A program made the position numbers and the translations under genes. The notes below the pieces were generated by a model. The model saw only the letters and a list, made by a program, of their open reading frames with translations, made no database searches and had not been told where the DNA came from. 64,000 bases of DNA from Limihaloglobus sulfuriphilus (GTDB taxonomy: Bacteria; Planctomycetota; Phycisphaerae; Sedimentisphaerales; Sedimentisphaeraceae), in contig NZ_CP019646.1 of assembly GCF_001999965.1 (NCBI RefSeq), forward strand, positions 1,116,001-1,180,000. The letters run 5' to 3'. Positions 974 to 29,775 of the stretch are shown one piece after another (the first letter of the stretch is position 1; every line of letters begins with the position of its first letter).

Positions 974-1071
974 TGAAAGTTCCCTTACGAATTTTAAAAT
1001 AAACTTAATTTCTTAAAACTAAAAATCATGAACAGATTCTACTTTAAAGCTGAATCTTTCGTTGTAAAAAT

Positions 1072-1099
1072 GCAGAGCGGTTAGAAACAACCGCCCTGC
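1072..1099 (-). terminator. Rho-independent terminator after the 753-residue secreted protein
   Basis: An 11-base stem (GCAGAGCGGTT pairing with AACCGCCCTGC, one mismatch) has a 6-base loop and, on the minus strand, is followed by a run of T. It lies 19 bases past the stop of the gene at 1118. A hairpin with a nearly identical GCAGGGCG stem follows the paralogous gene at 17875, so the terminator was duplicated with the gene. Confidence 0.7.
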
Positions 1100-1117
1100 T
1101 TAATTGCTGGTTTTAAA

Positions 1118-3379: not shown

Positions 3380-3516
3380 TTTGTCACCTCACTTACTAAA
3401 ACAATAACCTTTGTTTGACTTGAGAACCTTTGAATTTTTATGTTGTCCTTCAAGTCCCTTTACAATTCCCGGAACACTCAATTGTAAATTTACTTTTATT
3501 ATATGAATATCTGTTT

Positions 3517-4350
3517 TTAATATGAAGGAATCCCATTATGGCCGTGCCACTCGAATTTCTCTCTGTAGTCTCTCCATGAATCCATTTGTCTTACAGGATC
3601 AACATGGCCGTCTAAGAAAAGAAAGTTTGAACTGTTGCCGTGAACACCGGTTACGCCCTCTTCGAATCCAAACGAATAGAAATTTGTTGACTGCCCAGGC
3701 ACACACCCGGGACGTACAACCGAAGTCCTGCCTGCTATTGAGGGGTATTTGCTTTTCATCTCATTCCAGTCAAAGTAATAACAGTATATCAGCGGAGTCT
3801 GGGCATGTTGGCCAATCTTAGCCAATGTCGGCTTTTTCCAGACATACCCTCTGCCCGGCGGCGGAGATTTCACCCTGGCTGCCTGTAAATGGATGTTAGA
3901 GGAATAACCTGTACGCATACCGGCCCAATCGTTCTCATCAAGAATCTCTTCACCTATCTTCTGTACCTGGTTTCTGTTTTGAGGGCAATAAGCAACATTT
4001 CTGTCCCAGTCGCCGCTCTTATTACGTTTGTGTCCCTGTATGTACCGCATCAATATATCACTGTCATACCAGCCGGCATATTCCTTACGCTCGGCGTTAT
4101 AATAGTCGGCTATTTCCGGCTGCCACATAGCGAACAACAGGGGCATCTTGGAATTATTCTCCGAGCAGTACATGTGATAGCCCAGACCCACCTGCTTGAG
4201 ATTTGACGAACAGACAGCCCGTCTGGCAAGATCTCTTGCCTTTTGCAGTGAAGGAAGCATGATCGCCATCAGCAAAGCAATTATCGATATAACTACAAGA
4301 AGCTCGATGAGGGTGAAGCCTTTTAGTCTTCTGCTTGAGTGGATAGACAT
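3517..4350 (-). CDS. GspG/PulG-like pseudopilin (prepilin-type cleavage/methylation protein)
   Basis: A 277-residue protein whose N-terminus is a class III signal: a short basic leader, the GFTLIEL prepilin peptidase site at 11-17 and a hydrophobic helix ([17 protein letters not shown]). The body is soluble, and the tail has [11 protein letters not shown], the H/DG element common in planctomycete proteins of this kind. These proteins are thought to join type II secretion pseudopili or thin pili, but their individual roles are unknown. It is the first gene of the leftward pair with 1118-3379. A LacI-type operator lies 32 bases before the start. Apart from the first 9 residues it differs from the copy at 20189-21022 at only about four positions. 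Confidence 0.85.
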
Positions 4351-4381
4351 TTTATTTCCTTTATTATCAAATCAAACTTAA

Positions 4382-4397
4382 ATGTAAGCGATTACAT
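4382..4397. promoter_or_regulatory. LacI-type operator upstream of pseudopilin 1
   Basis: The site ATGTAAGCGATTACAT has perfect 6-base arms around a GCGA centre, the layout bound by LacI/GalR dimers. It is 32 bases before the start at 4350. Related sites stand at 6313, 9283, 21072 and 21199, all upstream of genes in this locus. The LacI regulator at 24517 is the obvious candidate to bind it (inference). The rest of 4398-4470 holds AT-rich promoter DNA; beyond 4471 the IS begins. Confidence 0.7.
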
Positions 4398-4470
4398 GTT
4401 CAAATCAAAGTCATTATATGATTTTAACTTAAAATGTCAAGTTCAAAAATAAATTTTCTAAAACTGAGAA

Positions 4471-6203
4471 ATTCCGTTTGTAAGGCTTTTCAGAAAATTT
4501 GCCACAAAATACTATTGATACCCAGTAGGTTAATGCGGATTAATCGGCGTTTCCTCGGCTTGCGGGCGTGCTTTGGGGGAGCAGTCGGGGCGAGCCTGGT
4601 GTGTGTTTCTTCTGGTCGTGTGATTTTAGGCGCACCGATAGTGTGGCAGGTAGTTTGTTGGTTTGTATTTGCGTTGTTATGCGGCTGATATTTTGATCGA
4701 CTCTGATTTAACCAGTGAGCGTATGTAGTGCGGCTGCTTGGTTTTCACGTACCCCAATGCCGTGCCTAACATCGTGATCAGTGCCAGGTCTACTCGCATC
4801 TGCATTTTTTTAAGGCCTCGAATATAGTGAGTTTCAAAACCAAAGGAGACATCGAGCCGACTGTTGACCCTCTCGACAGAAGTCCGTTTTTTGTATTCGT
4901 CTTTCCATTTATAGCTGTCCCGCGGCAAAGCCATAAAGATACGCGGGTCTTTTTCCAACCCGATCCTGATACTCTTGCCAATTGGACAACTCCCTGATGC
5001 GGGGCATGTCAGCCCTTGATGGTGTGCCGGGCAACCGAACTTGATACTGTCTCTATCCTTCTCAAAACCCCTGTTGCACATCTTGTTGAGTTCTCCCCCC
5101 TTGCAGCACTTGCAGAACACCTCACCCTGCTGGTTGTAATATATCCTGTCAAGGCCTTCAACCGGGCTATGTTCCAACTGCGTCATATTGCGAGTATCAA
5201 CAACAGCACGTATATCGTGCTCCTTCCATAACCATAGCTTGAAATCGCCGCAATCATAGCCTTTGTCTGCCGAGAGATATTCGCACTTCTCAAGAGCCTT
5301 TGAGGGACAGGCGTCAACCAGATTGTACGCCTCTAACATATCATTGTCATTACCCGGCGTTACGATACGTGCTATCGGCAGTTCATAATTGGCATCCACT
5401 GCCAGATGAACCTTGTAACCAAATATCGTTGTTTTTTTGATAATCTTACCGTTTTTATCTGTGTAAGTTTTTGTTGCCCAGCCGCCGTCAGTATCCCTTC
5501 TGCCGTCAGGCTTATTTTCTGAACCGGAGTTTGCCGCACTCTGGATGACTTTGCTGTCAATCGCTATACGCTGACCAAAGCCGGGCAGTTCCCGGGCAAG
5601 ACACTCCAGAAGATTCTGGAAAATACCGGCTACTTCTGCCGGATACTCCATAAGCGACTTGAGCAGGTTGGTATAGGCGTTTGATGATGGTACCGGGTGC
5701 TCTTTGAGAGGATCAAAACCGCAGATATCCCTGAGCTGACCGTTGCGAGAAAGCTCCCGGCGAAGAGCTTCGATGGTGTTGTGCCCAAATACGATGCCGG
5801 CAAGCATTGAGTTCCAACTGGCCCGTATCGGGTAGTCATCACGTCCATTGCCGCGGCGTTTTTCGAGTGTTTGCATTAGTTGTTCATCGTCGAGCGTCTT
5901 GAGTAACAGGTCGAGCCGCTCTAAATCTCCGAGATTTTCAACATTTTGGTAGCAAAACAAGCTGGGTTGTGGTATATTAGCCATTGGTAAATCCTTTTGT
6001 AGAATATAATATAAGTTCTTTTGGTTTAATGTCTTATATTATATCACATGCAAAATGATTTACCATTTTTCTATGGGGGCAATTTGAGGTTTTTTAATGT
6101 TTTTTTCGCTCGAATCAGGCCTGAAGCCAGAGAAAAAGGGGGAAAATCGGTTTCACTGCCGTTGCTAAATCCACCCGCTCAACAACTTACAAACAAACGG
6201 AAT
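4471..6203 (-). mobile_element. Insertion sequence of the IS4/IS1182 kind, about 1.73 kb
   Basis: The boundaries are proposed from a pair of inverted sequences: ATTCCGTTTGTAAG at 4471 and, inverted at the right, the same string with an extra TTTG (6186-6203). One transposase gene (4677-5984) lies between them. The flanking left 206 bases and right 219 bases of the element are noncoding. No convincing target duplication is seen, so the ends are tentative by a few bases. The element lies in the divergent promoter region between the pseudopilin and the GH26 gene, pushing apart two operator-bearing promoters that are 0.24 kb apart in the paralogous module. Confidence 0.55.
4677..5984 (-). CDS. 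DDE transposase, IS4/IS1182-like
   Basis: A 435-residue transposase. The DDE triad is readable: D in IAIDSKV (about 143), D in SADKGYD, and E in RTSVERVNSRLD near the C-terminus, the last being the usual Y-K-R-T-x-x-E-R context of this superfamily. A cysteine-rich stretch (CKCCKGG, then CPASGSCP) lies between the second D and the E. The frame is intact with no internal stop, so the element may still be active. Assignment to IS1182 rather than another IS4-superfamily group rests on overall look and length. Confidence 0.85.
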   Translation of the reverse strand: MANIPQPSLFCYQNVENLGDLERLDLLLKTLDDEQLMQTLEKRRGNGRDDYPIRASWNSMLAGIVFGHNTIEALRRELSRNGQLRDICGFDPLKEHPVPSSNAYTNLLKSLMEYPAEVAGIFQNLLECLARELPGFGQRIAIDSKVIQSAANSGSENKPDGRRDTDGGWATKTYTDKNGKIIKKTTIFGYKVHLAVDANYELPIARIVTPGNDNDMLEAYNLVDACPSKALEKCEYLSADKGYDCGDFKLWLWKEHDIRAVVDTRNMTQLEHSPVEGLDRIYYNQQGEVFCKCCKGGELNKMCNRGFEKDRDSIKFGCPAHHQGLTCPASGSCPIGKSIRIGLEKDPRIFMALPRDSYKWKDEYKKRTSVERVNSRLDVSFGFETHYIRGLKKMQMRVDLALITMLGTALGYVKTKQPHYIRSLVKSESIKISAA

Positions 6204-6312
6204 AGCTCAAACTGAAAATACCAAAAACGTTTGAACTAAAATTTCCGTATGAAGTACGAGCAAAAAAAGAATTATCTTGACGGTTTCGTTAAATTTCATA
6301 AAATCAAAACCA

Positions 6313-6328
6313 AAGTAAGCGCTTGCAA
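6313..6328. promoter_or_regulatory. LacI-type operator upstream of GH26 gene 1
   Basis: AAGTAAGCGCTTGCAA keeps the TAAGCGNTTGC core of the locus-wide operator and lies 33 bases before the GH26 start at 6361. The spacing resembles that at 4382 and 21199, which supports a shared repressor. The preceding stretch 6204-6312 shows no gene. Confidence 0.65.
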
Positions 6329-6360
6329 GCTATGTACAATATTAAACCAGGAATATCTAA

Positions 6361-9210
6361 ATGTCAATAAAAATAAATACAGTTCTGATGACTGTAGGGA
6401 TTTTGGCTGTTGCCGCCCAAGGCTACATTATCGAAAACTTTGAAACCTACGCAGATACCGCGGAACTGTCAGCTAACCCGCAGATTTATCTGCCGGGCCA
6501 TGGAACCAGCGGCAGCGGTGTTGCATACAACCTGCCAACAGCCGAGTTGGTAACTAATGACAGCTTTGAAGGCTCTAAATCTATAAAATTTTCCAGAACC
6601 GGCTATCCGGCTTATGCGAATTTTGGGTTTAATTTTAAATCACTTGACAGCGGCAGCCTGGATCTGGCGGCATATAATAAATTGCGTGTCTGGTTTAAAG
6701 GCGATGCTTCAAATCCCGTCGGCGACCTGATCTTGACAGTAAAAAACAGGTTTACAAGCGAGATATCAAAAACTATCATCGCAGACGGCACTACTATTAC
6801 AGAATGGACGCTCATTGAGGTAGATATAGATGAGCGATGGTCGGATGTAGGGTTTATTGTTTTTACTGCAAGAAAGAGTGACCACGGAACAGTCAATATG
6901 CTTATCGATGGGCTGGAGGCCCTCGTCTCGGAAACCAAAGTTGAGCCGACAGCTTTCCAGAAGCAGTTTATGACTTACGGAAACTTAAGTGTAGGCAAGT
7001 TTTATAAATTCAGCCATGATCCTTTGAGCGGTTTCTCTGATGAATGGCCCAATAAATGGACTGATGGATCAAAACTGACAAATGAAACTTTCAACGAGAC
7101 TACTTTTTCACAGAAAGAATGGTTGGGCTGGCAAGCAGACTCAACCCCTGTCGAGATAGTTCTCGATTTGGGTAAAAGCTACAATATAGATACAGTTAAA
7201 CTGCATTGCTGCAGCTACACTAACACGGGAATTTACTACCCCTCTACTGTGAACATCCATACAAAAACGCAGCACGACCAGCAATGGCAGCATTTTGTCC
7301 AGATAACCGGCGGCGGCGACACCGAAACCTTTTCAGATAAGTGGCTTAGGTTGGAATCCAGTTTTACCCCGGCCAGGTATATTCAGATTTCGGCGGCAGG
7401 GCCTGGAGGCACGCTGATGATCGATGAGATTGAAATATACGGAGAAATCGTCAACGAATGGAAACATGTGCCGGATTACGGCATGTATCACGGAGCTTTC
7501 GCTGTTGAAGAACATGGCTGGTGGAATTTGTCTTACTATGAGGAGCAGGCAAATAAAAAAACATCTATGGTTCTGTGGTATCACCAATTAAATCCTAACG
7601 AAAATAACAGCTCATTCTCAGAAGGATTGTCTTTTTTATGGCGTAACCCTAAATATCTGAGCAAAAACACAGTTGGAGAGAGATATCTCACCATCGGCTG
7701 GCTGCCGCGGTGGAGCACAGCACAAGACATAGCACAGGGCATTGATGGCTATGATGAACATTTTGAACAGTGGTTCTCAGAGAGCATTGATTATTCTATG
7801 AGATACGGCAATTCAGACCCAATCTGGCTGCGGCCGATGAACGAAATGAACGGAGGATGGACTTTCCCCACAGAAGACCCCGAGAATTCCAGCTGCTGGG
7901 GAGGCGACCCTCTAAATTACAGGAGAGCATGGAGAAGACTCTACAATATCGCCGAACAGGTTGGGGCGGCTGATAAGCATGTCTTTTTATGGTCGCCTAA
8001 CGGTTACACCTGGGCTGGAGAAGATCATCGCCCTGATAAATATTACCCGGGAGATCAATATGTTGACTGGGTTGGCATCAGCATGTACTCCCAGGGCGAC
8101 GAGCCGTATCCCAATAACACACTGACCGGCACCGCCGGCCCCGGATCGTTTGACTTCTACGGCACATGGCCGCACAAACCCATGATGATCTCAGAAGGCG
8201 CGTGGAAACCTGGCAAAGAAGGCGACGCAGAGCGGTGGATCAATGAATGGTTCGATATGCCGCACAATTTTCCCAGAATAAAAGCTGCCGTCTGGTTTAA
8301 CGGCACAGATATTAAAATAAGTGAAGCACTGTCTCCAAATCTGGTTGACCTGTTCAGACAAAGGCTAAGCGAGCCGTCGTTTCTGTCTTCTCCTTCAGCC
8401 GGAAGGTTAGATTTCAACTTTGACGGAAACATAAGTCTTGAAGATTTAGCCATTTGCTCCTCTAACTGGAAGCGTCTCTGGAAAGAAGATTTCCGAAACA
8501 ACCTGATAAATACGGCCTCCGGTGCTTTGATTTCCGACCTGTACTGGAGCAATACCGCCCAATGCGATGCGAGTGAGGCATGGGTGATTGACAACGAAAT
8601 CTTTGAACGCCCTTCTGTTAAAATAAGTCAGCTGCCTGCCGGCCAGACCGCCGACATGTTTACAAGGCTTCCATCCTCAGAACATTATCAGGTCAGCGGC
8701 AAAATAGTGAATCTTGATGAATTTGCAGCTCCCTACAGCAGCAGTTTTATGCGAATCTGCTTTGAATCGTTTCTGGTAAATGAAGATAACTCTGTCAGCC
8801 AGCCGGGCTGGACCATCGAAATTTACAGAAACGCCTTTGGAGAGACAATGTGGGCCGACGGTTTCAGAATTAGAGACCGTGAAGGCACAAGCCTTGCCAG
8901 CAACTATCTGGGTAAACTGGAACGTCCTTATGCGGTTCCGTTTATTTTTCAGCGCTCGGATGACAACGTGTACATATCTATAGGTGACGGTGCTCAAAAA
9001 ATAGAGCAGCATATAGTTAGCGAACTCGACCCAAGCAACTCCGCTCTAAGGTTTTATCATCAGTCAATGGGACCGCAGGCATCTGACTCCTGGGTTATAA
9101 CCGACTTAAAAGTTTTCTCTAACTTTGAAATAGATGATATTGACGGCAACAGGCACTTTGACGAATCAGATTTAATGTTTTTCTCTGAAAAATGGCTGCA
9201 GAACGAGTAA
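6361..9210 (+). CDS. Secreted GH26 glycoside hydrolase with CBM-like, discoidin-like and dockerin-like parts
   Basis: A 949-residue secreted enzyme (signal peptide about 1-20). Order of parts: a beta-rich CBM11-like region (22-190), an F5/8-type C (discoidin) domain (about 200-362), a GH26 catalytic barrel (365-665), a dockerin-like loop (DFNFDGNISLEDL, 684-696), one copy of the domain shared with the neighbouring secreted proteins (about 725-918), and a terminal half dockerin repeat ending KWLQ. The GH26 acid/base is E495 in RPMNEMNGGW and the nucleophile E612 in MISEGAW. GH26 enzymes cut beta-mannan, and some cut beta-1,3-xylan or mixed-linkage glucan; which applies here is open. The start has a weak AGGA upstream. 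The paralogue at 22127 lacks the N-terminal CBM11-like part. Confidence 0.88.
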   Translation: MSIKINTVLMTVGILAVAAQGYIIENFETYADTAELSANPQIYLPGHGTSGSGVAYNLPTAELVTNDSFEGSKSIKFSRTGYPAYANFGFNFKSLDSGSLDLAAYNKLRVWFKGDASNPVGDLILTVKNRFTSEISKTIIADGTTITEWTLIEVDIDERWSDVGFIVFTARKSDHGTVNMLIDGLEALVSETKVEPTAFQKQFMTYGNLSVGKFYKFSHDPLSGFSDEWPNKWTDGSKLTNETFNETTFSQKEWLGWQADSTPVEIVLDLGKSYNIDTVKLHCCSYTNTGIYYPSTVNIHTKTQHDQQWQHFVQITGGGDTETFSDKWLRLESSFTPARYIQISAAGPGGTLMIDEIEIYGEIVNEWKHVPDYGMYHGAFAVEEHGWWNLSYYEEQANKKTSMVLWYHQLNPNENNSSFSEGLSFLWRNPKYLSKNTVGERYLTIGWLPRWSTAQDIAQGIDGYDEHFEQWFSESIDYSMRYGNSDPIWLRPMNEMNGGWTFPTEDPENSSCWGGDPLNYRRAWRRLYNIAEQVGAADKHVFLWSPNGYTWAGEDHRPDKYYPGDQYVDWVGISMYSQGDEPYPNNTLTGTAGPGSFDFYGTWPHKPMMISEGAWKPGKEGDAERWINEWFDMPHNFPRIKAAVWFNGTDIKISEALSPNLVDLFRQRLSEPSFLSSPSAGRLDFNFDGNISLEDLAICSSNWKRLWKEDFRNNLINTASGALISDLYWSNTAQCDASEAWVIDNEIFERPSVKISQLPAGQTADMFTRLPSSEHYQVSGKIVNLDEFAAPYSSSFMRICFESFLVNEDNSVSQPGWTIEIYRNAFGETMWADGFRIRDREGTSLASNYLGKLERPYAVPFIFQRSDDNVYISIGDGAQKIEQHIVSELDPSNSALRFYHQSMGPQASDSWVITDLKVFSNFEIDDIDGNRHFDESDLMFFSEKWLQNE

Positions 9211-9339: not shown

Positions 9340-9466
9340 ACTCTATGGGGTGTCAGCAATCAGATTGAACTCAATTTATGTTATTTTAAACAATATTTTA
9401 TAATAATTTTACGGGAACAGATTTTTCTGTTTTAAGCCTTTAAAATATCAAGAAAGGACTAACTGC

Positions 9467-10948
9467 ATGTCAGGTCAAATAAAGCAGAAACCTAATATAA
9501 TATTCATCATGAGCGATGACCACGCTTCTCATGCAATGAGCTGTTACGGCAGTTTTATCAACAAAACGCCGCAGCTTGACCGTATAGCCAATGAGGGTAT
9601 GCGTTTTGACAACTGTTTCTGCACAAATTCCATATGCACCCCCAGCCGGGCCGCAATACTCTCCGGCACTTACAACCATGTCAACGGCGTAACTACACTT
9701 GCCACCCACATGGATAACCGTCTTGAAACATTTCCTAAAATACTTAAACGAAACGGGTACCAGACCGCTGTATTCGGGAAATGGCACCTGGGCAAAGGCC
9801 CTGAACACAGCCCTTCCGGTTTTGATGACTGGGCAGTTCTTAACGGTCAGGGCAATTACCACAACCCTGAATTCTTTTTTAAAGGGCCTGAGGGCGGCAC
9901 GGCCAAAACGGTTAAAGGCTACGCAACCGATATAATCACTGACATGTCTATAGACTGGCTGGAAAAAAGAGACGAAAATCAGCCTTTCTGCCTTTTGTGC
10001 CATCATAAAGCACCTCATCGGCCGTGGTATCCGGACGAGAAACACGCCGGCATGTATTTAAACGAGGATATTCCCGAACCTGAAACACTTTACGATGACT
10101 ATTCGAACCGAGCCAAAGCCGCTGAAGCCGCCCTCATGAGGGTAGGCGTAAACATGATTGAACGGGATTTAAAATCAGAAATGCCTAAAGGGCTAACTGA
10201 AAATGAATTACGGAGCTGGGCTTATCAAAGGTACATTAAGGATTATCTGCGTGTTATTGCAAGCATTGATGACAATGTCGGCAGGTTACTGGACTATCTC
10301 GATAATAAAGGCCTGACCGAAAACACCATGATTATTTACACATCTGATCAGGGATTCTTTCTTGGCGACCACGGTTGGTATGACAAGAGATTTATGTATG
10401 AGCAGTCGCTAAGGATGCCCTTTATAGTCAGGTACCCTGAGCTGATTAAAGCCGGCACGGTAAACGAAGATATTGTTACAAACATTGATTTCGCCCCAAC
10501 CTTTCTTGATCTGGCCGGGCTGGAAAGCCCAAAAGAATTCCAGGGCTTCAGCATAAAGCCGCTTTTAGAGGGCGCCACGCCAGAGAACTGGCAGAAAGCA
10601 ATGTATTACAGGTACTGGATGAACCGTGCTCATCATAATGTCGCAGCTCATTACGGAATAAGGACAAAAAAACACAAATTGATCTACTACTATTCAGATG
10701 GCCTGGACCAACCGGGAACCGCGGACGAACTATGTTGCAACATGCCGGAAAATTTTATAGACGTCAACAGCCTTGAACCTGAATGGGAACTCTTTGACCT
10801 TGAAAAGGACCCCATGGAAATGCACAACGTCTATAATGACCCCACATACAAGCAAGTAGTTGATGAACTGAAGGACCAGCTTGCAGAGCTGCAGAAAAAA
10901 ATTGGAGACAAACCATACGAAGACAGTCAGTCTGTAACAAAACGATAA
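9467..10948 (+). CDS. Sulfatase without a signal peptide
   Basis: A 493-residue type I sulfatase. C57-T-P-S-R61 followed by a SG is the formylglycine signature, and IMSDDH (14-19) near the N-terminus provides metal-binding residues; GKWHLGKG is another family hallmark. There is no signal peptide: the protein starts MSGQIKQKPNIIFIMSDD, so it should act in the cytoplasm on imported sulfated sugars. An AAAGGA stands 7 bases before the ATG. It leads a rightward operon with the UroD-like gene (67-base gap), GH94 phosphorylase and symporter. An anaerobic-type maturase (anSME) is not in the window. Confidence 0.92.
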   Translation: MSGQIKQKPNIIFIMSDDHASHAMSCYGSFINKTPQLDRIANEGMRFDNCFCTNSICTPSRAAILSGTYNHVNGVTTLATHMDNRLETFPKILKRNGYQTAVFGKWHLGKGPEHSPSGFDDWAVLNGQGNYHNPEFFFKGPEGGTAKTVKGYATDIITDMSIDWLEKRDENQPFCLLCHHKAPHRPWYPDEKHAGMYLNEDIPEPETLYDDYSNRAKAAEAALMRVGVNMIERDLKSEMPKGLTENELRSWAYQRYIKDYLRVIASIDDNVGRLLDYLDNKGLTENTMIIYTSDQGFFLGDHGWYDKRFMYEQSLRMPFIVRYPELIKAGTVNEDIVTNIDFAPTFLDLAGLESPKEFQGFSIKPLLEGATPENWQKAMYYRYWMNRAHHNVAAHYGIRTKKHKLIYYYSDGLDQPGTADELCCNMPENFIDVNSLEPEWELFDLEKDPMEMHNVYNDPTYKQVVDELKDQLAELQKKIGDKPYEDSQSVTKR

Positions 10949-11015
10949 AGCTAAAATGAACATTACCGTGTGCCATAATCTAAAATGTTACTGAAGATTA
11001 AGTTTTTTTGATATT

Positions 11016-12131
11016 ATGAACGGCAAAAAAAGAGTATCAGATGTCCTGTCGCTGAGAGAGCCGGATAGAACCCCCGTCTGTCTCTCGCCATGGAAATCGA
11101 CTATAAAAAAGTGGACCAGCGAAGGTTTCTTGCAGCCCGGCGAAGACATCGTAAAGCACTTCGATTTAGATATTAGATTCCATGATTTTATCAACACTAA
11201 AGGCAATCTTGAAGCCGGGGAAAAGATATTAGAGCAAACCTGCGATACACAGGTGATTCTGAACGAAAATGGCGCAACAATCAAAAGGTTTACTGACCGC
11301 GAGGCTGGAGAACAGTATATCGATTATGCGGTAAAAACCAGAAAAGACTGGGAAAACCTGATTAAACCTTACCTGCTGAATATTGATCAAAGACGAATTC
11401 CATTTGAAGCGTATGAATCAAAATTTAAAACCAGTCTGGAAGATCACGTTTTTCTCTTTTGGCGCGGACCTGCACCTTTTGAGCTGATGCGAAGCCTTTG
11501 CGGACACGAGACACTGCTAATGGCCATGGCTATGGATCCCGACTGGGTAAAGGATATGGTTATTACTTACGCAGAGTTCACAGTGAAGCATTTAGAGATT
11601 CTTTTTGCTGAGTCAGGCCTTCCGGACGGTATATTTTTCTTTGAAGATATGGGTCTTAAGGAAAAACCCTTCTTTTCTCCTGAGATGTACGATAAAATAA
11701 TGAAACCGGGCCATAAGATACTTTTCGATTTTGCCCATACGGCATCCGTATCAAAGAAAGTTACAGTGCATTCCTGCGGATACGTTGAACCGCTCTTACC
11801 GGGTCTCATTGAAGCCGGCATGGACTGTCTCCAGGGCTTAGAGGTTAAGGCGGGAATGAACCTTAACAAGATTTTTAAACAATACGGAGACAAAATCGCA
11901 TTGTTTGGGGGACTTGACGCAAGAATTTTAATGAGCAATGATTTTGATAAAATTAAGGCAGCTGCCATTGAGCACATTTTTCCTGTTTTAAAACAGAAAG
12001 GTGCGTACATACTCCATTCTGATCATTCTGAGCCCCCGCAGGTCGAGTATCAGACAGCCGTATATATAGTAAATGACTTACGGAAAGCATGTTCTCAACA
12101 GTTAGATAATAATCTGAAAGAAGAAAGGTAA
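11016..12131 (+). CDS. Uroporphyrinogen decarboxylase-like (UroD/MtaA superfamily) protein
   Basis: A 371-residue protein of the UroD fold. It opens with a helix ending LREPDRTPV, typical of UroD-like proteins, and has the late motif VTVHSCGYVEPLLPGLIEAGMDCLQGLE, where H and C match the zinc-ligand region of MtaA/CmuA-type methyltransferases, and LFGGLDARILM. True HemE proteins are part of heme operons; this one is joined to the GH94 gene with a 4-base gap, so a methyl-transfer or other role in sugar catabolism is more likely. No corrinoid protein is seen nearby. Planctomycete glycan loci often carry such genes with no known reaction. Confidence 0.8.
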   Translation: MNGKKRVSDVLSLREPDRTPVCLSPWKSTIKKWTSEGFLQPGEDIVKHFDLDIRFHDFINTKGNLEAGEKILEQTCDTQVILNENGATIKRFTDREAGEQYIDYAVKTRKDWENLIKPYLLNIDQRRIPFEAYESKFKTSLEDHVFLFWRGPAPFELMRSLCGHETLLMAMAMDPDWVKDMVITYAEFTVKHLEILFAESGLPDGIFFFEDMGLKEKPFFSPEMYDKIMKPGHKILFDFAHTASVSKKVTVHSCGYVEPLLPGLIEAGMDCLQGLEVKAGMNLNKIFKQYGDKIALFGGLDARILMSNDFDKIKAAAIEHIFPVLKQKGAYILHSDHSEPPQVEYQTAVYIVNDLRKACSQQLDNNLKEER

Positions 12132-12135
12132 TACA

Positions 12136-14424
12136 ATGTACAGTTCACAATGGGGCAGTTTTACAAATGACGGCAAAGCCTATGTAATAGAAGATCCGGT
12201 AACGCCCCGACCGTGGGAAAATTATTTATATTCAAAAGACGGCAAGTTCCAAGCCGTTGTCACCCAAAGAGGCCTGGGAACAACCTTCTATGATTGTCCC
12301 CAGGTTAACAAAGTTTCAGACGGCCGCAATTTTTGCGTCTGCACAAAAGACGGCCGCTACTGGTCCATCAACGGCGGTGCCGCAAACCAGACCCCTGAAA
12401 ACTACAGATGCATACACGAGCCTGGAAAAACCTCTTTTGAGACGAGCTTTAACGGCCTTAACTGCAATCTTGAGATAAGTTTAGCACCCGAGAAACACGC
12501 GGAGATAGACAGAGTTATCATAAGTAATAATTCATCAGATGATAAAACTTTTTCACTTATTGGCTGGCATCTTGTAAAGCTCAACGGATTAGACAACAGG
12601 CTGGAATGCCAGTACAGCAGGTTTAACTCGGAAGTTAATGCGTTGGTTTGCCAGAGAAGGCACTACAGAACCCCCAGATACAAATACGCGGCGTTCTTTA
12701 CCTGTGATAAAAAGGCTGACAGTTTTTGCGGCAGTTTACAGGCATTTCTCGGACATGACAGTGACATTAGCGATGCAGAAAGCCTTAAACAGTGCTCTCT
12801 GCCGCAGATAAATGCTCATGGCACAGAACCAATAAGCGCTTTACAGCATGATATAACACTTAAACCCTCGGAAAGTATTGAACTTTATTATGCCTTTGGT
12901 GTTGCTCAAGATATGGACGAGGCAGAACAAAAGGCCGGCGAGTTTGGATCTGTTTCAGCAAATTATGCATCGCAATTTACGGCATCCAGAAAATATTTCA
13001 AGCATCTATTCAACTCTGTTGACATTGAAACTCCAGATTCGATTCTAAACATTATGCTCAGTACATGGTCCCGGATACAGCTTGACAGACAAACGGTTTC
13101 GGCTCGCGCCACTCCCTGGTTTAACTGGAGAAACCATCTTCAGGACTCATGGGCTTTCAACATGTTCGATAATTCTTACTCTCGTAAATGGATTACTGAA
13201 ACATGTAAACGGGCGTATGAGGACGGCTTCCTGCCCAGATGCTCAGCCAGAGTCAAAGAGCTCACATTTCCTGACCAAAGCCACCCCGATATAGCAACCT
13301 GGGCGGCTCTATCCGCCGAGAGATACATAGCAGAAAGCGGAGACTGGGGTTTCCTTGATGAAGTCGTATGCTATGCAGACGGCAAGGCAAAGGCCGGCAT
13401 AGCCGATATTTTAATAAACGGCCTTGACTGGCTGCTGAACCATAGAGGCAAAAACGGAATGGTGCTGATGTTAGAAGGCGACTGGAGTGACCCCCTGGAA
13501 GAAGTCGGCAGAAAAGGCATCGGTGAATCGCCGTGGACTTCTATGGCTCTGATAAATGCAATCAACGCTTTTTCTGATGTTTTAATGAGAATAGACCGGC
13601 AGCAGGAAGCCCAAAGACTATTAAAAGGCGCTGCTGAACTTACCAAAGCGGTAAATAAATCTGCATGGGACGGTGATTTCTATATCCGGGCGATAACCGA
13701 CGATGGTTTGAAAGTCTGCACCAAAGACGATCCTGACGGTAATGTAAGCCTGCTTATGCAGTCCTGGGCACTGATCAGCGGCGTGGCGTCTGCGCAACAG
13801 ATTGAATCTATCATTAAAACGGTTGATTCCAACAATAAAACAGACATAGGGCCGATCATTTATGCCCCCCCCTTCATGAAGCCTCGCCCATGGGTCGGCA
13901 GAGAAACCGCAAAACCGCCTGGAACCTGTGTGAACGGATCCTGCTACACCCATGTCGCTATGATGTGGGCAATGGCGGAAGTTCTTGTCAAACGCCCCGG
14001 CGAGGCAGTGGATATCATGAAGAGAATACTGCCTCTGCACCAGGAAGACCATACACCCATATCAACGGCAGTGCCTTTGTGGATGCCCAACTATTTTCAC
14101 GGTCCCGCTTCTATGACACCGGGCCAGAGCAGTGATGTAATGACAAGCGCTTCACCGCCGTGGCTGTTTCTGGTAGTCTGTGAGCACCTGCTTGGGATCA
14201 GGGCAACACTTGAGGGCCTTCATATAGCTCCTTGTATGCCAAATGACTGGAACAAGGCCGGATTCAGGCGGATGTGGCAAGGCTCAGAATATGATTTTAC
14301 ATTTAATCGTGTGGGCCCGGGCAACAGCATCAGCATTGAAGTTGACGGAAATAGAATCGAAGGAAACATACTGAAACCCGATTCTTCGCATAAGCAGCAC
14401 AAAATAAACATAACGCTCGGTTAA
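12136..14424 (+). CDS. GH94-family glycoside phosphorylase
   Basis: A 762-residue protein with an N-terminal beta-sandwich and a C-terminal alpha/alpha barrel. The segment EGDWSDPLEEVG followed by GESPWTS (447-467) matches the GDWND...GKGES active-site region of GH94, whose Asp is the general acid; the family Asn is Ser here. GH94 enzymes split beta-linked disaccharides with phosphate, giving a sugar 1-phosphate, which saves ATP in anaerobes. No signal peptide, so it is cytoplasmic. The length fits the family (about 800). It starts 4 bases after the UroD-like gene with an AAAGG site. The substrate could be a disaccharide released by the GH26 enzymes, but this is inference. Confidence 0.8.
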   Translation: MYSSQWGSFTNDGKAYVIEDPVTPRPWENYLYSKDGKFQAVVTQRGLGTTFYDCPQVNKVSDGRNFCVCTKDGRYWSINGGAANQTPENYRCIHEPGKTSFETSFNGLNCNLEISLAPEKHAEIDRVIISNNSSDDKTFSLIGWHLVKLNGLDNRLECQYSRFNSEVNALVCQRRHYRTPRYKYAAFFTCDKKADSFCGSLQAFLGHDSDISDAESLKQCSLPQINAHGTEPISALQHDITLKPSESIELYYAFGVAQDMDEAEQKAGEFGSVSANYASQFTASRKYFKHLFNSVDIETPDSILNIMLSTWSRIQLDRQTVSARATPWFNWRNHLQDSWAFNMFDNSYSRKWITETCKRAYEDGFLPRCSARVKELTFPDQSHPDIATWAALSAERYIAESGDWGFLDEVVCYADGKAKAGIADILINGLDWLLNHRGKNGMVLMLEGDWSDPLEEVGRKGIGESPWTSMALINAINAFSDVLMRIDRQQEAQRLLKGAAELTKAVNKSAWDGDFYIRAITDDGLKVCTKDDPDGNVSLLMQSWALISGVASAQQIESIIKTVDSNNKTDIGPIIYAPPFMKPRPWVGRETAKPPGTCVNGSCYTHVAMMWAMAEVLVKRPGEAVDIMKRILPLHQEDHTPISTAVPLWMPNYFHGPASMTPGQSSDVMTSASPPWLFLVVCEHLLGIRATLEGLHIAPCMPNDWNKAGFRRMWQGSEYDFTFNRVGPGNSISIEVDGNRIEGNILKPDSSHKQHKINITLG

Positions 14425-14445
14425 AAAAAATAAGAAAGGTACAAA

Positions 14446-16149
14446 ATGACGGAAACGATCGGACAGCAACCCATATCTTTTTGGATAGTAATGCTTTCCT
14501 ACGGCATCTTACTTGGTGCAATAAGTATTTATTTCGCAAAATATATAAAAAACACCGAAGATTTTTTCAGGGCTTCCCAGAATACTCCCTGGTGGATCGG
14601 CGGCCTGAGCTTTTTTATGACTGCATTTTCTGCATCCGTATTTGTCGGCGGAGCTTCGTTTGCCTATCAATACGGTGCGTTAAGCCTCTCTCAGGTTGCA
14701 CTTATGCTCCCCACATTTATCCTCGGGTATTTTGTCTTTTCACGCCGTTGGCACCGAACCGGACTCGAAACCGCTATCGAATTTATTGAACACCGCTACA
14801 ACGGCAAAACAGCTCATTTTTTCATTTGGACCGGGCTGCCTGTGAGAATATTAGACAATGCCAACCGACTTTATGTTACAGCGGTTCTGATTGAAGTTCT
14901 CTTCGGGATTGATTTGTGGACGGCTATCCTTTTAACTGCATTGACAGCAGTTATCTACACCGTTGCAGGCGGCTTTCTCGCCGTTGTGGTAACAGATTCG
15001 ATTCAAGCTCTGGTTATGGCTATCATAGTAATAATAATCGCTGTTACTTCATACCTGCGGGTTGGCGGTTTTTCAGGCCTGATTGAGAAACTGCCGGAGG
15101 GGTATTGGTCTTTAAATCCACCGGATACTGATTACAGCATAGCCATGATTGCCAGTCTTGCGCTGGTGGCATACTGCACATGGAACGGATACTGGTCGCT
15201 TGTTCAGCGTTATCTGACAGTTGAGACTGAATCAGATGCCAAAAAAGTATGCTTAACGGGCGGTTTTTCGTACTTCCTGTTATTCCCGCTGTTTATGCTG
15301 CCGCCAATATTTGCTGTTGTACTGGTTCCAGGATTAGAATCCGCACAGGAAGCCGAGACATCATATCTGCGTATAGCAGAACTGATACTGCCTTCGGGAC
15401 TTTTAGGTGTTATGTGCTTTGCCCTGATCGGCGCCACAATTACAGCTTTAAACTCCGACCTGAATGTAATGTCACAGATAATAATCAACGATGCATTTAA
15501 AAAGGTTCTGCGGCTAACCTCCGAAAAAAAACGTTTATTGATAAGCAGGATAACTGTAGTTGTAATAACGATACTCTGTATGCTTATTGCGGGCTCAATA
15601 AGGTCTCTTGGCGGCTCCTTCCGTTATCTGGTAACTCTTATGGGCTTAACCAGTATGCCGACATTCATACCGCTGCTGATGGGGCTCTTTTATAAAAGGA
15701 CACCTCCATGGGGAGCCATTACGGCATTTTGTGCAGGTATAACCATAGGGCTGGTAATGACATTTGGGTTTGGAGTTACTCTGACCTGGGTTATTGTAGC
15801 CAACTTCTTAACAACCTTAGGCGTAATGCTTGTTACCGGCTGGCGATGGCCTGTTACGGGCGAAAAATCCAGGCAGGTTGATGCCCTGTTCAAGAAACTC
15901 AGCACTCCCGGAGCCGGCAATGTCACTGATACCGGCGGCACTAAAGTTGTCAATGGAAGGATACTAACCCTTGTCGCTTTTGTCATGTTTGTGATGGGCA
16001 CGATTCTGCTCTTTACCGGTACTCAACTAAGCAACGCTGACATAAAAATTGTTATTTCATCCGTCTCAATCTTTTATTTTGCAGGATTCATGCTTACTGC
16101 AATTAAATACATCTTAAAGAAGAAAGCCGCTGTCATAGTAAAAGACTGA
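14446..16149 (+). CDS. Sodium:solute symporter (SSS family)
   Basis: A 567-residue membrane protein with about 13-14 hydrophobic segments and SSS features: DFFRASQNTPWWIGG near the start, FGVTLTWVI late, and a GGFLAVVVTDSIQ segment after the fifth helix. It should import sugars with sodium. It follows the phosphorylase by 21 bases with an AAAGG ribosome site, so the operon pairs import with cytoplasmic desulfation and phosphorolysis. A cytoplasmic linker of about 60 residues precedes the last two helices. Confidence 0.9.
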   Translation: MTETIGQQPISFWIVMLSYGILLGAISIYFAKYIKNTEDFFRASQNTPWWIGGLSFFMTAFSASVFVGGASFAYQYGALSLSQVALMLPTFILGYFVFSRRWHRTGLETAIEFIEHRYNGKTAHFFIWTGLPVRILDNANRLYVTAVLIEVLFGIDLWTAILLTALTAVIYTVAGGFLAVVVTDSIQALVMAIIVIIIAVTSYLRVGGFSGLIEKLPEGYWSLNPPDTDYSIAMIASLALVAYCTWNGYWSLVQRYLTVETESDAKKVCLTGGFSYFLLFPLFMLPPIFAVVLVPGLESAQEAETSYLRIAELILPSGLLGVMCFALIGATITALNSDLNVMSQIIINDAFKKVLRLTSEKKRLLISRITVVVITILCMLIAGSIRSLGGSFRYLVTLMGLTSMPTFIPLLMGLFYKRTPPWGAITAFCAGITIGLVMTFGFGVTLTWVIVANFLTTLGVMLVTGWRWPVTGEKSRQVDALFKKLSTPGAGNVTDTGGTKVVNGRILTLVAFVMFVMGTILLFTGTQLSNADIKIVISSVSIFYFAGFMLTAIKYILKKKAAVIVKD

Positions 16150-16192
16150 GAACAATCAATGAAGCATAAAATTTAATATTTCTATAACTTAC

Positions 16193-16229
16193 AATCTGCG
16201 ATTCAAGCAGAGCGCTTGAATCGCAGATT
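16193..16229. repeat. Perfect 16-base inverted repeat between symporter and AGE-fold gene
   Basis: The arms AATCTGCGATTCAAGC (16193-16208) and its exact complement (16214-16229) flank a 5-base loop, AGAGC. There is no T run after it on either strand, so it is a poor classical terminator. It could be an RNA processing or stabilising hairpin at the 3' end of the symporter message, a partial terminator, or a protein-binding palindrome for the gene at 16271. Confidence 0.75.
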
Positions 16230-16270
16230 AACTGTAAAACAGATAAAACTTAAATAGAACTACCTATAAG

Positions 16271-17692
16271 ATGGAACATAATTTTAATAAAACTGAATTG
16301 CCGTCTAATCCTTCACCGCCTGATTTGGCTGCTGTTAGAGATGACTATAAAATCATTATCAGCAGAGCCTTAGAAGCGGTGCTTGACCGTTATGAGGATA
16401 ATGATAATTATCCATGGGTTGACACAAAGCTGGACATTCTAACCGGCAGAGACTTTCCAGACGACGATATCATAAGAGGCAAACACACGGTTTACGGCTG
16501 GATACAGGGAAGAGCGCTGGAGTCAATTGCCGAACATGCCAAATGGCTGAAAAATAACACAATTTCCTGCCGGCCGCTGATAGAGAGATGCACAAAAGTT
16601 GTAAAAAAACTCTCAGACCGGCTGATCCGTACCCGTAAGCTAAATGGAGGGCACTGCTATTTCTTTATGGACGAGGCCGGCAAAGCGTGCTCATTTGATA
16701 AAGATAAACGGGTATATGTCAATTTAACACCTGATTCCCCGTATAATTACAGTGATATTTTCTGTTCAAAAGGCCTTTATGCCGCGGCCTGTTATCTTAA
16801 TGACCAGAGTGCTCAGATGCAGGCCAAAAATTATTGCATAGAAGTAATAGATGCTCTTTTGAGCGGCTGTTTCAGAAGCGACCAGCACCGATTTGAAGGC
16901 GACCTCTGCCTGCCGGTAAATGATAACGACAAAATATCACACGGACCTGTATCCATTGCAATAGGAATAGCTAATGTTCTATTTGAAGACAACAAAGACA
17001 TAGACACGGCTCGAATTGCGGTAAGTCTAATAGAGCATACCCTTTCTAATTATGTAAATTTAGGGCAGTGGAACTATCTGCAGGAATACGATTTTGTTGA
17101 ATTTATAGATGCCGATTATCAACCCTTTAATAATTGCGGGAGCATATTTTCAGATCCCGGTCATGCGCTGGAGTTTGCGGGTTTGTCTTTGAAATTCACT
17201 GAGATGGCAAGGAAAGTCGAATCTGTAAATAAAAGTTTTTATAAAAGACTAAACTATTATAGAGAGATTATGCCTGAAATCCTGTTCCGAAACTTTGAAA
17301 ACGGCTTTAATCCGGAAGCTGAGGGCATATGCAAATTATGGGATCTTACCAATTCAAGGCCGGCAAACCCCGACATGCCCTGGTGGAGCCTTCCTGAAAC
17401 AATGCGTACTGCCATATACAGTGTTTTGACATCCAGTAAAGATAATTTCCAAAACCAGGCTTTAGAAATATACAGCCTGTGTCATAACGCATTTATAAAT
17501 CACTATCTCAAACCTGAGCTAAATTTCTTCTGTCTGCAGACCAGAGGGACTGATAAAAAACCCAAAGAAGTTATTCCTGCCACACCCGACGCCGACCCCT
17601 GCTATCATACCGGACTGTGTATCCTGGACTGTATCAGATGTGTAGATAAGCTGGCAGGCCAGCGGCAATTAGCCTCCTCAGCCTGTGAATGA
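16271..17692 (+). CDS. Alpha/alpha-barrel protein, distantly AGE (N-acylglucosamine 2-epimerase)-like
   Basis: A 473-residue protein with no signal peptide. It resembles the AGE/cellobiose-epimerase fold: GKHTVYGWIQGRALESIAEHAKW early, FSDPGHALEFAGLSLKF in the middle (AGE proteins have a PGHxxEW segment) and a DMPWWSLPETMRTAIYS segment that parallels the WWxQAE stretch. A sugar epimerase or isomerase acting after import would fit the place at the end of the sulfatase-phosphorylase-symporter operon. It is separated from the symporter by 121 bases with a strong inverted repeat, so it may have its own control. The match is weak enough that an unsaturated-glycoside-hydrolase-like role cannot be excluded. 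The first ATG has a poor ribosome site. Confidence 0.55.
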   Translation: MEHNFNKTELPSNPSPPDLAAVRDDYKIIISRALEAVLDRYEDNDNYPWVDTKLDILTGRDFPDDDIIRGKHTVYGWIQGRALESIAEHAKWLKNNTISCRPLIERCTKVVKKLSDRLIRTRKLNGGHCYFFMDEAGKACSFDKDKRVYVNLTPDSPYNYSDIFCSKGLYAAACYLNDQSAQMQAKNYCIEVIDALLSGCFRSDQHRFEGDLCLPVNDNDKISHGPVSIAIGIANVLFEDNKDIDTARIAVSLIEHTLSNYVNLGQWNYLQEYDFVEFIDADYQPFNNCGSIFSDPGHALEFAGLSLKFTEMARKVESVNKSFYKRLNYYREIMPEILFRNFENGFNPEAEGICKLWDLTNSRPANPDMPWWSLPETMRTAIYSVLTSSKDNFQNQALEIYSLCHNAFINHYLKPELNFFCLQTRGTDKKPKEVIPATPDADPCYHTGLCILDCIRCVDKLAGQRQLASSACE

Positions 17693-17874: not shown

Positions 17875-20133
17875 TTACTGGCTGAGTAAATCAGTCATCA
17901 GCCATTTATCACTCATTGACTGCAGGTCAAGAACATCAATGATATTGTCTTTCATAATATCATATTGAAGCCCAAGAACATCGTTGGTTAAAACGATATT
18001 TGCCCAGCCCAACGGAGAATGGTCGCCGCCATAGCCGGCCACCTCATGCTTTAAACGTATAGCATCCCTGCCTGGCACCCTCGCCTCTGTGAAGGTGATA
18101 GTAGCCTCATAGGACTGGCCTACGCCTAATGTTACAGTAACATTGTCTCCGCTGCGAGTAAATTTGCAGGGGACTTCATAAGGAGTTGCGCTTTTCTTGC
18201 CAACATATACTGCTTTAAGTACATTGTCTTCTGAATCGCGAACCCTCACTCTCAAGTTTCTATCAGCGGCCTTCTCCAAATCCATTCTATACCCGTTGTT
18301 TACTACCGTACCGGTTTCATCAACCTCAGCCTCAACATATATTGAGGATTTACAAGTACGTGTAGGAGCAGGGTTATCGTAATCTACCAGACTCAATGAC
18401 AGGGTATAGTCTTCAAACTCAGGTACAGTAGTATAGACCGAACCAGAGGCGCTGTACATCGCAGCGTTGTAAGCTCCGGGCCTGCCGGCGAATACAGTAT
18501 TATTCGCTTTCAGGGCAGACGTACGCAGGCTGCCGCTCTCTGCCTTCCATCTGCTGTTGCCGGTCATCTCAAGATTGGCCCAGCCGAACAGACCGTGGTC
18601 TCCGCCGTAACCGTTAACTGAATGGTAAAGCCTGATCTTATTGTTACTGCTGTCTAAAGTATCGGTTACAGTAACAAAATCTTCCTGATTCAAACCTTTT
18701 GCCATTACGATAGTTACCTGGTCTCCGTCCCTGCTGAACTCAAACGGAATCGGATACGGCACCTGAGCAGTCTTGGAAATGAAAATCCCTTTTAACAGGT
18801 TGCCCTGAGGGTCATAGGCAGCCATCCTGAGATTTCGGTCCGCATACCTGTCGAGCCTGATCTCAAAGCCTGCTTCCTCAAGCTCATTTGTATCTTCGTT
18901 CACAGCAGCTTCGATAAACACAGAAGTGTTGGCGATTCGGCTTTCCATCAGGTTATCGTAATCAACCAGGCTGCCGGAAAAAGTATAAACCTCATCTTCG
19001 GGTATTTCAATGCTTGTGTAAACGGCGCCGCTTCCGCTGAACCACTGCTCGGCCTGTGCCGCGGGAGAGCCGTTGAGCAGCTCATTGTCTGCAAAAATCA
19101 GAGCGCTGCGAAGGTGTCCGGCTTCTTCTGTCCATATTGCGCTATCCACAAGCGGACCGTTAATCCAGTCAAAATACGCCCTGCCCAGAACGATGTCTGT
19201 AATTGGATGGTCATAAAAACCACGGAAATCTTCGTTCCAGCCGCCTACACTGCCCCATTCCGATGACATGAGCGCCAAATCAGCATAATCGACAAAGCCG
19301 TCTTTATTCAAATCAGAGAAATAGAAAAGCCCCTCAGGCAAATCTGCTGCTGAACCGTCTGAAACCCTGAAATTATCGCACCACACGCGATGGCCGCTGG
19401 TAAAATAGACATCTCTGCCCCCGCCAAGGCCTGCCGGGCCGGCCAAGGTCATATCGGTGGTAGATGAGAGCAGCAGCCCAGGCTCACCAGATCCGGAAGA
19501 GCCGCTTGCCTTGGCAACAAACTTTACATTACCGCCGTCAACCTGGAGTGCAAGGGTCCATATATCGTTTGGCCCGACGTCTGAGACATCGCAGATATAA
19601 TAAGAAGCCACGGATCCTGTTCCGCCGGTAACGGTTATCCTGCCGTAGTACTGTGTTCCGTTCATATTAGTCAGGACATGTGCATAGATATAATTGTCCT
19701 GGTCATAACACCTTGCCAGCAAACCGAAATCACGGTAAGTGCCGCTGGAACTTTCATCTTTAAACTCTGCGGTTACGGTATAATCGCTCATTGACGAGGT
19801 TATGCCAAGACTCTCTACAGCATACTCAAAGCCGGAGAACCAGTTAGCCTCAACGGCCTGGTTGCTCGCGGAGCTGCCGCCCATCTGGTGAACCTTAACC
19901 TGAAACTCCCTGTCAGCACCTCTGAGGAAATGGTCCCACCACGGGTCCGAATATCTTACTAAATATTCATAATCGTATTCAGTAAGGTCATAGCCGCTGG
20001 CCAATTCAAAATTGTCCTGAAAATAAACCTCGCCCAGGGCACTGCCGCCCGCAAAAACCAAAACTAACACTGAAACAACCAAAAGTGTGTCTTTGATGGA
20101 ATCAGCACATAATTTCAACATGTTAAGTCTCAT
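17875..20133 (-). CDS. Secreted multidomain protein, paralogue of 1118-3379
   Basis: A 752-residue protein with the same layout as its paralogue: signal peptide (about 1-34), ConA/LamG-like domain, dockerin-like loop (DLNKDGFVDYADL), two copies of the shared domain (each with a SVYTTVP or AVYTSIEIP start and a GDH-LGWAN end) and a half dockerin repeat (KWLMTDLLSQ). The two paralogues are clearly similar over the full length but have diverged at many residues. It follows the pseudopilin at 20189 by 55 bases and is co-transcribed with it. A glycan-binding or scaffold role next to the GH26 enzyme is inferred; no catalytic motif is visible. Confidence 0.75.
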   Translation of the reverse strand: MRLNMLKLCADSIKDTLLVVSVLVLVFAGGSALGEVYFQDNFELASGYDLTEYDYEYLVRYSDPWWDHFLRGADREFQVKVHQMGGSSASNQAVEANWFSGFEYAVESLGITSSMSDYTVTAEFKDESSSGTYRDFGLLARCYDQDNYIYAHVLTNMNGTQYYGRITVTGGTGSVASYYICDVSDVGPNDIWTLALQVDGGNVKFVAKASGSSGSGEPGLLLSSTTDMTLAGPAGLGGGRDVYFTSGHRVWCDNFRVSDGSAADLPEGLFYFSDLNKDGFVDYADLALMSSEWGSVGGWNEDFRGFYDHPITDIVLGRAYFDWINGPLVDSAIWTEEAGHLRSALIFADNELLNGSPAAQAEQWFSGSGAVYTSIEIPEDEVYTFSGSLVDYDNLMESRIANTSVFIEAAVNEDTNELEEAGFEIRLDRYADRNLRMAAYDPQGNLLKGIFISKTAQVPYPIPFEFSRDGDQVTIVMAKGLNQEDFVTVTDTLDSSNNKIRLYHSVNGYGGDHGLFGWANLEMTGNSRWKAESGSLRTSALKANNTVFAGRPGAYNAAMYSASGSVYTTVPEFEDYTLSLSLVDYDNPAPTRTCKSSIYVEAEVDETGTVVNNGYRMDLEKAADRNLRVRVRDSEDNVLKAVYVGKKSATPYEVPCKFTRSGDNVTVTLGVGQSYEATITFTEARVPGRDAIRLKHEVAGYGGDHSPLGWANIVLTNDVLGLQYDIMKDNIIDVLDLQSMSDKWLMTDLLSQ

Positions 20134-20188
20134 TTTTTTCTAACCTCATTTAAATAAAATAATTTTGTCTCAATGACCGAGCCTGTTT

Positions 20189-21022
20189 TTAATATGAAGG
20201 AATCCCATTATGGCCGTGCCACTCGAATTTCTCTCTGTAATCTCTCCATGAATCCATTTTTCTTACAGGTTCAACATGGCCGTCTAAGAAGAGAAAGTTT
20301 GAACTGTTGCCGTGAACACTGGTTACGCCCTCTTCGAATCCAAACGAATAGAAATTTGTTGACTGCCCGGGCACACACCCGGGACGTACAACCGAAGTCC
20401 TGCCTGCTATCGAGGGGTATTTGCTCTTCATTTCATTCCAGTCAAAGTAATAACAGTATATCAGCGGAGTCTGGGCATGTTGGCCAATCTTAGCCAATGT
20501 CGGCTTTTTCCAGACATACCCTCTGCCCGGCGGCGGAGATTTCACCCTGGCTGCCTGTAAATGGATGTTAGAGGAATAACCTGTACGCATACCGGCCCAA
20601 TCGTTCTCGTCAAGAATCTCTTCACCTATCTTCTGTACCTGGTTTCTGTTTTGAGGGCAATAAGCAACATTTCTGTCCCAGTCGCCGCTCTTATTACGTT
20701 TGTGTCCCTGTATGTACGGCATCAATATATCACTGTCATACCAGCCGGCATATTCCTTACGCTCGGCGTTATAATAGTCGGCTATTTCCGGCTGCCACAT
20801 AGCGAACAACAGAGGCATCTTGGAATTATTCTCCGAGCAGTACATGTGATAGCCCAGACCAACCTGCTTGAGATTTGATGAACAGACAGCACGTCTGGCA
20901 AGATCTCTTGCCTTTTGCAGCGAAGGAAGCATGATCGCCATCAGCAAAGCGATTATCGATATAACTACAAGAAGCTCAATCAAAGTGAAGCCTTTTGATT
21001 TTTTTTCAGCGGAATAAAACAT
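20189..21022 (-). CDS. GspG/PulG-like pseudopilin, near-identical second copy
   Basis: A 277-residue prepilin-type protein with the [18 protein letters not shown] helix and a [11 protein letters not shown] tail. It matches the copy at 3517-4350 at all but about four positions after residue 9, and the DNA is also nearly identical, while the partner genes downstream have diverged a lot. The first nine residues (MFYSAEKKS versus MSIHSSRRL) differ fully. This points to recent gene conversion or strong selection. An operator lies 50 bases upstream. It heads the leftward transcript of module 2. Confidence 0.85.
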
Positions 21023-22076: not shown

Positions 22077-22126
22077 ATAAAGTAGTATTTTTGAGTTACT
22101 TATATAAAACCGTGTTAGAGTTATCT

Positions 22127-27804: not shown

Positions 27805-27867
27805 TTAGGGGTGTAAAACAGGGTTTATGGTAGCGCCCGCGGCGTTGGTGTGTCGCCAAAGGGGGTC

Positions 27868-29628: not shown

Positions 29629-29775
29629 ACCCAAATTATCGCATAGAAATTCACCTATGCAATAGGGCAGGTCTGTACCAAAGCCAAATCCAGAATCAAA
29701 ACACCCCTCAAAGGCCAGAAACATCGAAAATATTTTTATTTTTACCGGTTTCGAGACCTAAGTGAGAAATTGGGG

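Follow-up and report, generated by a model that had tools for sequence, protein, structure and literature searches.

O-demethylase and dehalogenase systems built around proteins of the UroD superfamily are made up of a methyltransferase (MTI), a corrinoid protein and a second methyltransferase (MTII) (PMC13222342). In the current analysis we have studied a UroD-like protein whose gene lies between those of an S1 sulfatase and a GH94 phosphorylase in Limihaloglobus sulfuriphilus. The stretch analysed, referred to here as the window, consists of 64,000 nucleotides (NZ_CP019646.1, positions 1,116,001 to 1,180,000, forward strand) of the closed, 3.87 Mb genome of this planctomycete, which is 99.97% complete. 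We give an even chance to the proposal that this gene cluster serves the catabolism of a glycan that is sulfated, acidic in part and perhaps O-methylated, and that the UroD-like protein would act in it as a zinc methyltransferase supplying methyl groups to a corrinoid protein shared with other loci.

The characterised proteins OdmB, VdmB, MtvB, MtoB and CdmB (PMC13222342) belong to the same superfamily, CdmB being the second profile match of the window protein, and the genome considered here also encodes corrinoid proteins and activases. They differ in that the UroD genes of this genome are scattered and have sulfatases and glycosidases as neighbours, and that an MTII acting on tetrahydrofolate (THF) was not found in it. 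MtaA, the methylcobamide:coenzyme M methyltransferase (4ay7), shares with the window protein the UroD fold and an H-x-C at the matching position and is its best profile match in the PDB, whereas the window protein has H337 for the third Cys, scores below the NCBIfam cut-offs and carries nothing that points to coenzyme M. The mlp gene clusters, which are compact and for which a role in methyl-sulfur or methyl-selenide metabolism has been proposed (PMC10418091), are alike in having multiple UroD-family methyltransferase homologues per anaerobe, a corrinoid protein with RACE and no THF methylase in the cluster; in contrast, the 35 copies found here are dispersed and many are near glycan genes.

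Removal of a methyl group from an algal sugar for its catabolism is known from 6-O-methyl-galactose, which is reported to be demethylated oxidatively by an oxygen-dependent cytochrome P450 (PMC10033563). The purpose is the same in the route considered below, but that route is hypothetical and would be free of oxygen. No sugar demethylase that depends on a corrinoid came up in a literature search of limited coverage, which is no proof of novelty.

The UroD-like protein and the corrinoid machinery of the genome

The protein was assigned to the UroD superfamily on the basis of PF01208 (63.3 bits, the cut-off being 23.9) and of the UroD fold of its AlphaFold model (pLDDT 93.9). Its key residues are D211, H252-S-C254-G and H337. 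In alignments with paralogues and homologues, H252-x-C254 and H337 fall at the positions of the H-x-C...C zinc motif of MtaA; among 20 homologues H252 and C254 are conserved in at least 90%, and H337 is invariant. A profile search of the PDB placed MtaA (4ay7, 1.3e-7) and CdmB (9rui, 1.6e-6), both of them corrinoid methyltransferases, above the HemE structures, while a search with the single sequence gave no PDB match at 0.001. The best NCBIfam matches are MtaA/CmuA models (49.3, 43.2 and 36.3 bits against cut-offs of 244, 400 and 235).

The identity of the protein as HemE was considered and rejected, there being no RQAGR signature (the N-terminus reads SPWKSTIKKW) and no match to TIGR01464. 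HemE activity, which an earlier note made from the letters of this DNA had named as one of two outcomes that would speak against its idea of a sugar demethylase, is unlikely on these grounds. The description of the protein in that note as methyltransferase-like is upheld by the H-x-C site, the profile kinship to MtaA and CdmB, the corrinoid proteins and activases of the genome and their co-occurrence in the phylum, and methyl transfer is moderately supported as its class of chemistry.

The genome encodes 35 PF01208 proteins. The highest of them scores 218 bits, as against about 360-454 bits for the top PF01208 proteins listed for other members of the phylum, and therefore no recognisable HemE is present in the genome. 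UroD expansions of similar kind are seen in about 34 of the 294 planctomycetes sampled. The corrinoid protein and the reductive activase that a three-component O-demethylase requires in the cell are both encoded. Two 210-residue PF02607 proteins, at 508.6 and 1344 kb, are candidates for the former; the first of these contains PF02310 as well, scores slightly under the cut-offs of TIGR02370 and the MtgC/MtbC models and resembles 1y80 in the PDB. Two RACo/AcsV-like reductive activases with complete RACo architecture are located at 2801 and 3088 kb. At locus L099 (4969-8846), the gene of the methyltransferase-type corrinoid protein is followed after 338 bases by two sulfatase genes in the same orientation, and a hydantoinase-A-like gene is divergent. 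The gene of an MtaA/CmuA-like paralogue at 854 kb is preceded, on its own strand, by those of a sulfatase and a sugar MFS transporter. This paralogue and another at 2663 kb have the H-x-C...C arrangement of MtaA.

Co-occurrence was considered in 294 planctomycete genomes, which are mutually related, with thresholds of E<=1e-50 for the UroD homologue and E<1e-20 for the activase, the tallies being compiled by hand from result tables. The activase is found in 13 of the 14 genomes with such a homologue and in 76 of the other 280 (p=1e-6). It is also found in 30/34 genomes with at least ten UroD candidates as against 59/260 (p=9e-14), these candidate counts being a proxy with at most six per genome scored in that search. 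Within one family (f15) the corresponding figures are 6/7 for UroD-rich genomes and 2/12 for the rest (p=0.006). The corrinoid activase also serves the Wood-Ljungdahl pathway, and the co-occurrence is thus partly a marker of anaerobes.

The sulfatase, UroD and GH94 cluster

Five open reading frames (ORFs) follow one another on the plus strand and are flanked by two genes for GH26-like proteins:

6361-9210, plus strand, secreted GH26-like glycanase with an F5/8 discoidin-like region (PF02156, 34.3 bits)
9467-10948, plus strand, S1 sulfatase lacking a signal peptide, with CTPSR in the active site (PF00884, 205 bits; SGSH_C)
11016-12131, plus strand, UroD-superfamily protein, putative zinc corrinoid methyltransferase (PF01208, 63.3 bits)
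12136-14424, plus strand, GH94 phosphorylase (PF17167, 178 bits; PF06165, 115 bits)
14446-16149, plus strand, SSS-family sodium:solute symporter (PF00474, 136.8 bits; TIGR00813, 188.7 bits)
16271-17692, plus strand, GlcNAc-2-epimerase-like (alpha/alpha)6 protein (PF07221, 22.0 bits, slightly under the cut-off of 23.4)
22091-24439, plus strand, second secreted GH26-like protein (PF02156)

The sulfatase and UroD genes are separated by 67 bases, in which no plus-strand terminator is called, and the UroD and GH94 genes by exactly 4 bases (TAA ending at 12131, ATG at 12136), so that the gene order and the narrow gap reported before are as described. The spacing is 21 bases from GH94 to the symporter and 121 bases from there to the epimerase-like gene. 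The shared strand and the spacing suggest that the five genes form an operon.

The start of the sulfatase reads MSGQIKQKPNIIFIMSDDH, with a ribosome-binding site, AAGAAAGGA, upstream. The closest in-frame upstream stop is at 9404 and no alternative start lies between; an overlooked signal peptide is therefore unlikely, in agreement with the claim that the enzyme has none. Its CTPSR fits the C/S-x-P-S-R pattern of the S1 sulfatases, and its top PDB match is a GlcNAc-6-sulfatase (5g2v, 480 bits). Together with the phosphorylase and the symporter, the signal-less sulfatase supports the view of the same note that sulfated oligosaccharides are imported and processed inside the cell. The GH26-like protein at 6361-9210 has, by direct reading, an RPMNEMNG motif and an N-terminal signal and is likely to be an extracellular depolymerase; it is 67% identical to the protein at 22091-24439. 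For the epimerase-like protein no credible solved relative was found by sequence search. A paralogue of 41% identity is encoded in another locus of the genome (L093, 5707-12978), which also has genes for a UroD protein and an SSS symporter and thus resembles the operon of the window minus GH94.

The phosphorylase has both GH94 domains and a predicted catalytic residue, D452, aligned with D492 of 1v7v, which we take to be the catalytic acid. R589 and K593 align with R609 and K613 of 4zle, presumably the ligands of the gluconate carboxylate, and form a pair like that of cellobionic acid phosphorylase (CBAP). The closest relatives in the scanned GTDB contigs are two GH94 proteins of Lentisphaeria (contigs L069 and L070, 52% identity). 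All three proteins have WRN for G[FY]RD, VNG for ENG and DWSD for DWND, three motifs that the majority of the GH94 sequences compared retain, the altered donor-motif residues of the window protein being N333 and V599, and thus lack the G[FY]RD and ENG of the glucose- or GlcNAc-donor enzymes (CBP, ChBP and CBAP). The top PDB match, 4zle, is the CBAP of Saccharophagus (PMC8950772), which shares the GH94 domains and the aligned R/K pair but differs in the three motifs, so that another donor sugar is likely in the window enzyme. The donor-site residues are reported to be highly conserved across the family (PMC5309861, PMC6484121), and since they are altered here, it is reasonable to infer that the donor is unusual and the acceptor acidic or sulfated. 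Given the altered motifs and the R/K pair, cellobiose and chitobiose are both improbable as the substrate.

With genes called by a simple longest-ORF rule, sulfatase genes make up 21 of 306 near the UroD genes of this genome, and 15 control regions at arbitrary positions have 1 among 175 genes (p=0.001); for the immediate neighbours alone the enrichment is borderline (p=0.05), and that of SSS genes near the UroD genes is not significant. The Pfam families tallied among the immediate neighbours include sulfatase, SSS, AraC and BNR. Several UroD genes stand directly before or after a sulfatase of the same strand. At least one such sulfatase, too, is without a signal (L086, by reading).

The GH26-UroD-GH94 order of the window recurs in one gut Lentisphaeria contig, L069, which encodes in order a GH26 protein (33% identical to the window GH26), an alpha/beta hydrolase, a UroD protein, a second UroD protein (38%), a pilin-like ORF and the GH94 relative. 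The other contig, L070, starts at its GH94 gene, and the upstream region is outside it. Both Lentisphaeria genomes with a GH94 relative also have the activase. In a tree, the window UroD protein, a paralogue of 52% identity from the same genome, the second UroD protein of L069 and planctomycete homologues fall into one clade of 9 members (100/100).

A close pairing of UroD and GH94 across the phylum was considered and rejected, as the GH94 proteins of the 294 genomes reach at most about 31% identity and none was seen to be encoded beside an orthologous UroD gene. A search of plasmids gave GH94 proteins of about 25% identity only.

Proposed pathway and alternative readings

Gene order, protein families, the H-x-C...H site, the corrinoid components and the co-occurrence are features of the sequences themselves, and the following route would be consistent with them. 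Secreted GH26 enzymes would cleave the polymer, the SSS symporter would take up the short products, the cytoplasmic sulfatase would strip the sulfate and GH94 would phosphorolyse the disaccharide. A methyl ether derived from the substrate would give up its methyl group through the UroD-like protein, predicted to depend on zinc, and the group would pass to the cobalt of a corrinoid protein from another locus, for which the proteins at 508.6 and 1344 kb are candidates. The two activases of RACo type (2801 and 3088 kb) would maintain this corrinoid protein as Co(I), and an MtaA-like paralogue such as that at 854 kb could hand the methyl group to a thiol. Methyl transfer, zinc and the identities of partner and acceptor are predictions of this scheme, and a sugar methyl ether as the donor is a hypothesis suggested by the gene context.

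A number of points weigh against this scheme. The UroD-like protein misses the NCBIfam MtaA/CmuA cut-offs by a wide margin, and in its putative zinc site the third ligand of MtaA, a Cys, is replaced by H337. The model matches UroD and MtaA structures with Z scores of 26-29 overall, HemE (Z 29) reaching values as high as MtaA (Z 27); whole-fold scores do not separate the two, and fold alone is therefore uninformative on function. The genes of the operon include no corrinoid protein or MTII. A search of the genome for a THF methyltransferase gave no MtrH, and the sole pterin-binding protein reads as FolP; THF is thus unlikely as the acceptor via known enzymes, and the suggestion of the earlier note to that effect finds no support. 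One genome (G061) with 52 UroD candidates is without a detected activase. By reading, most of the UroD orthologues in other planctomycetes are without adjoining sugar-catabolic genes. The proposed link of UroD with sugar genes holds for the sulfatases of this genome and for the GH26-UroD-GH94 order in L069 and fails at most orthologous planctomycete loci, which argues that this type of UroD protein has been recruited into, and is not bound to, glycan clusters.

Orthologues are often isolated, and two of them adjoin an AraC-type regulator by reading, which speaks for the alternative that survives best, though we regard it as improbable. The UroD-like protein may be a corrinoid methyltransferase for a non-sugar donor that comes free together with the glycan, such as a methoxyaromatic or a methylated osmolyte, and its adjacency to GH94 would then reflect shared induction. 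The characterised O-demethylases OdmB, VdmB, MtvB and MtoB do use methoxyaromatics (PMC13222342); however, the paralogues of this genome near sulfatase and glycan genes and the order kept in L069 speak against such a donor.

A corrinoid-free function, in which an acidic sugar would be the substrate of a lyase, decarboxylase or isomerase that depends on a metal, appears more improbable still. More than one chemistry is known for the TIM barrels of UroD fold, the R/K pair of GH94 resembles the acid-binding pair of CBAP, and a paralogue without H-x-C is found in an apparent sugar-acid (KDG/KDPG) cluster (L081, by reading), but the co-occurrence with the corrinoid activase would not be expected from such a function. 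The weakest alternative, a thiol-directed second methyltransferase of MtaA type supplying homocysteine or another thiol, has in its favour the H-x-C site and a genome in which no MetE (PF01717) or MetH domains were detected, the pterin-binding domain occurring only in FolP, and is nevertheless very unlikely, since the two MtaA-like paralogues with H-x-C...C (854 and 2663 kb) suit the role better and some thirty copies in glycan clusters would be left without a reason. For its methionine this organism may rely on uptake or on methyl transfer from a methylcorrinoid to homocysteine.

Returning to the sugar-demethylating scheme, a wider generalisation is possible but doubtful: that Planctomycetes and Lentisphaeria have expanded a set of corrinoid-dependent, UroD-type sugar O-demethylases, dispersed in sulfatase and glycosidase clusters and sharing corrinoid proteins and activases, with GH94 acting on a matching disaccharide that is so far undescribed. 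If true, most of the 35 unexplained UroD paralogues of one genome would be accounted for, many annotations of 'uroporphyrinogen decarboxylase' in the phylum would become testable, and glycan breakdown would be tied to one-carbon metabolism in anoxic settings and in the gut. O-methylated sugars are present in algal and plant glycans, and the route would be an anaerobic counterpart to the demethylation of such methylated glycans by P450.

Other features of the window and of UroD loci

Two similar gene pairs flank the operon, at 1118-4350 and 17875-21022, each encoding a secreted protein of about 752 residues and a nearly identical pilin-like protein of 277 residues, which suggests a segment duplication. 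Two almost identical copies of a transposase-like ORF of 618 residues are arranged in tandem at 25879-29724, and more transposase-like ORFs are present at 4677-5984, 34342-35421 and 51764-52402. The gene pair at 29980-31415 resembles, by reading, a toxin-antitoxin system of AbiEi/AbiEii type.

Elsewhere in the genome, one UroD protein (L080, 8111-9820) is fused to C-terminal thioredoxin-like domains and its gene is followed by that of a CobW GTPase. At L087, another UroD gene adjoins, by reading, a Cas12a-like ORF of 1295 residues followed by Cas4-like and Cas1-like ORFs (214-6404).

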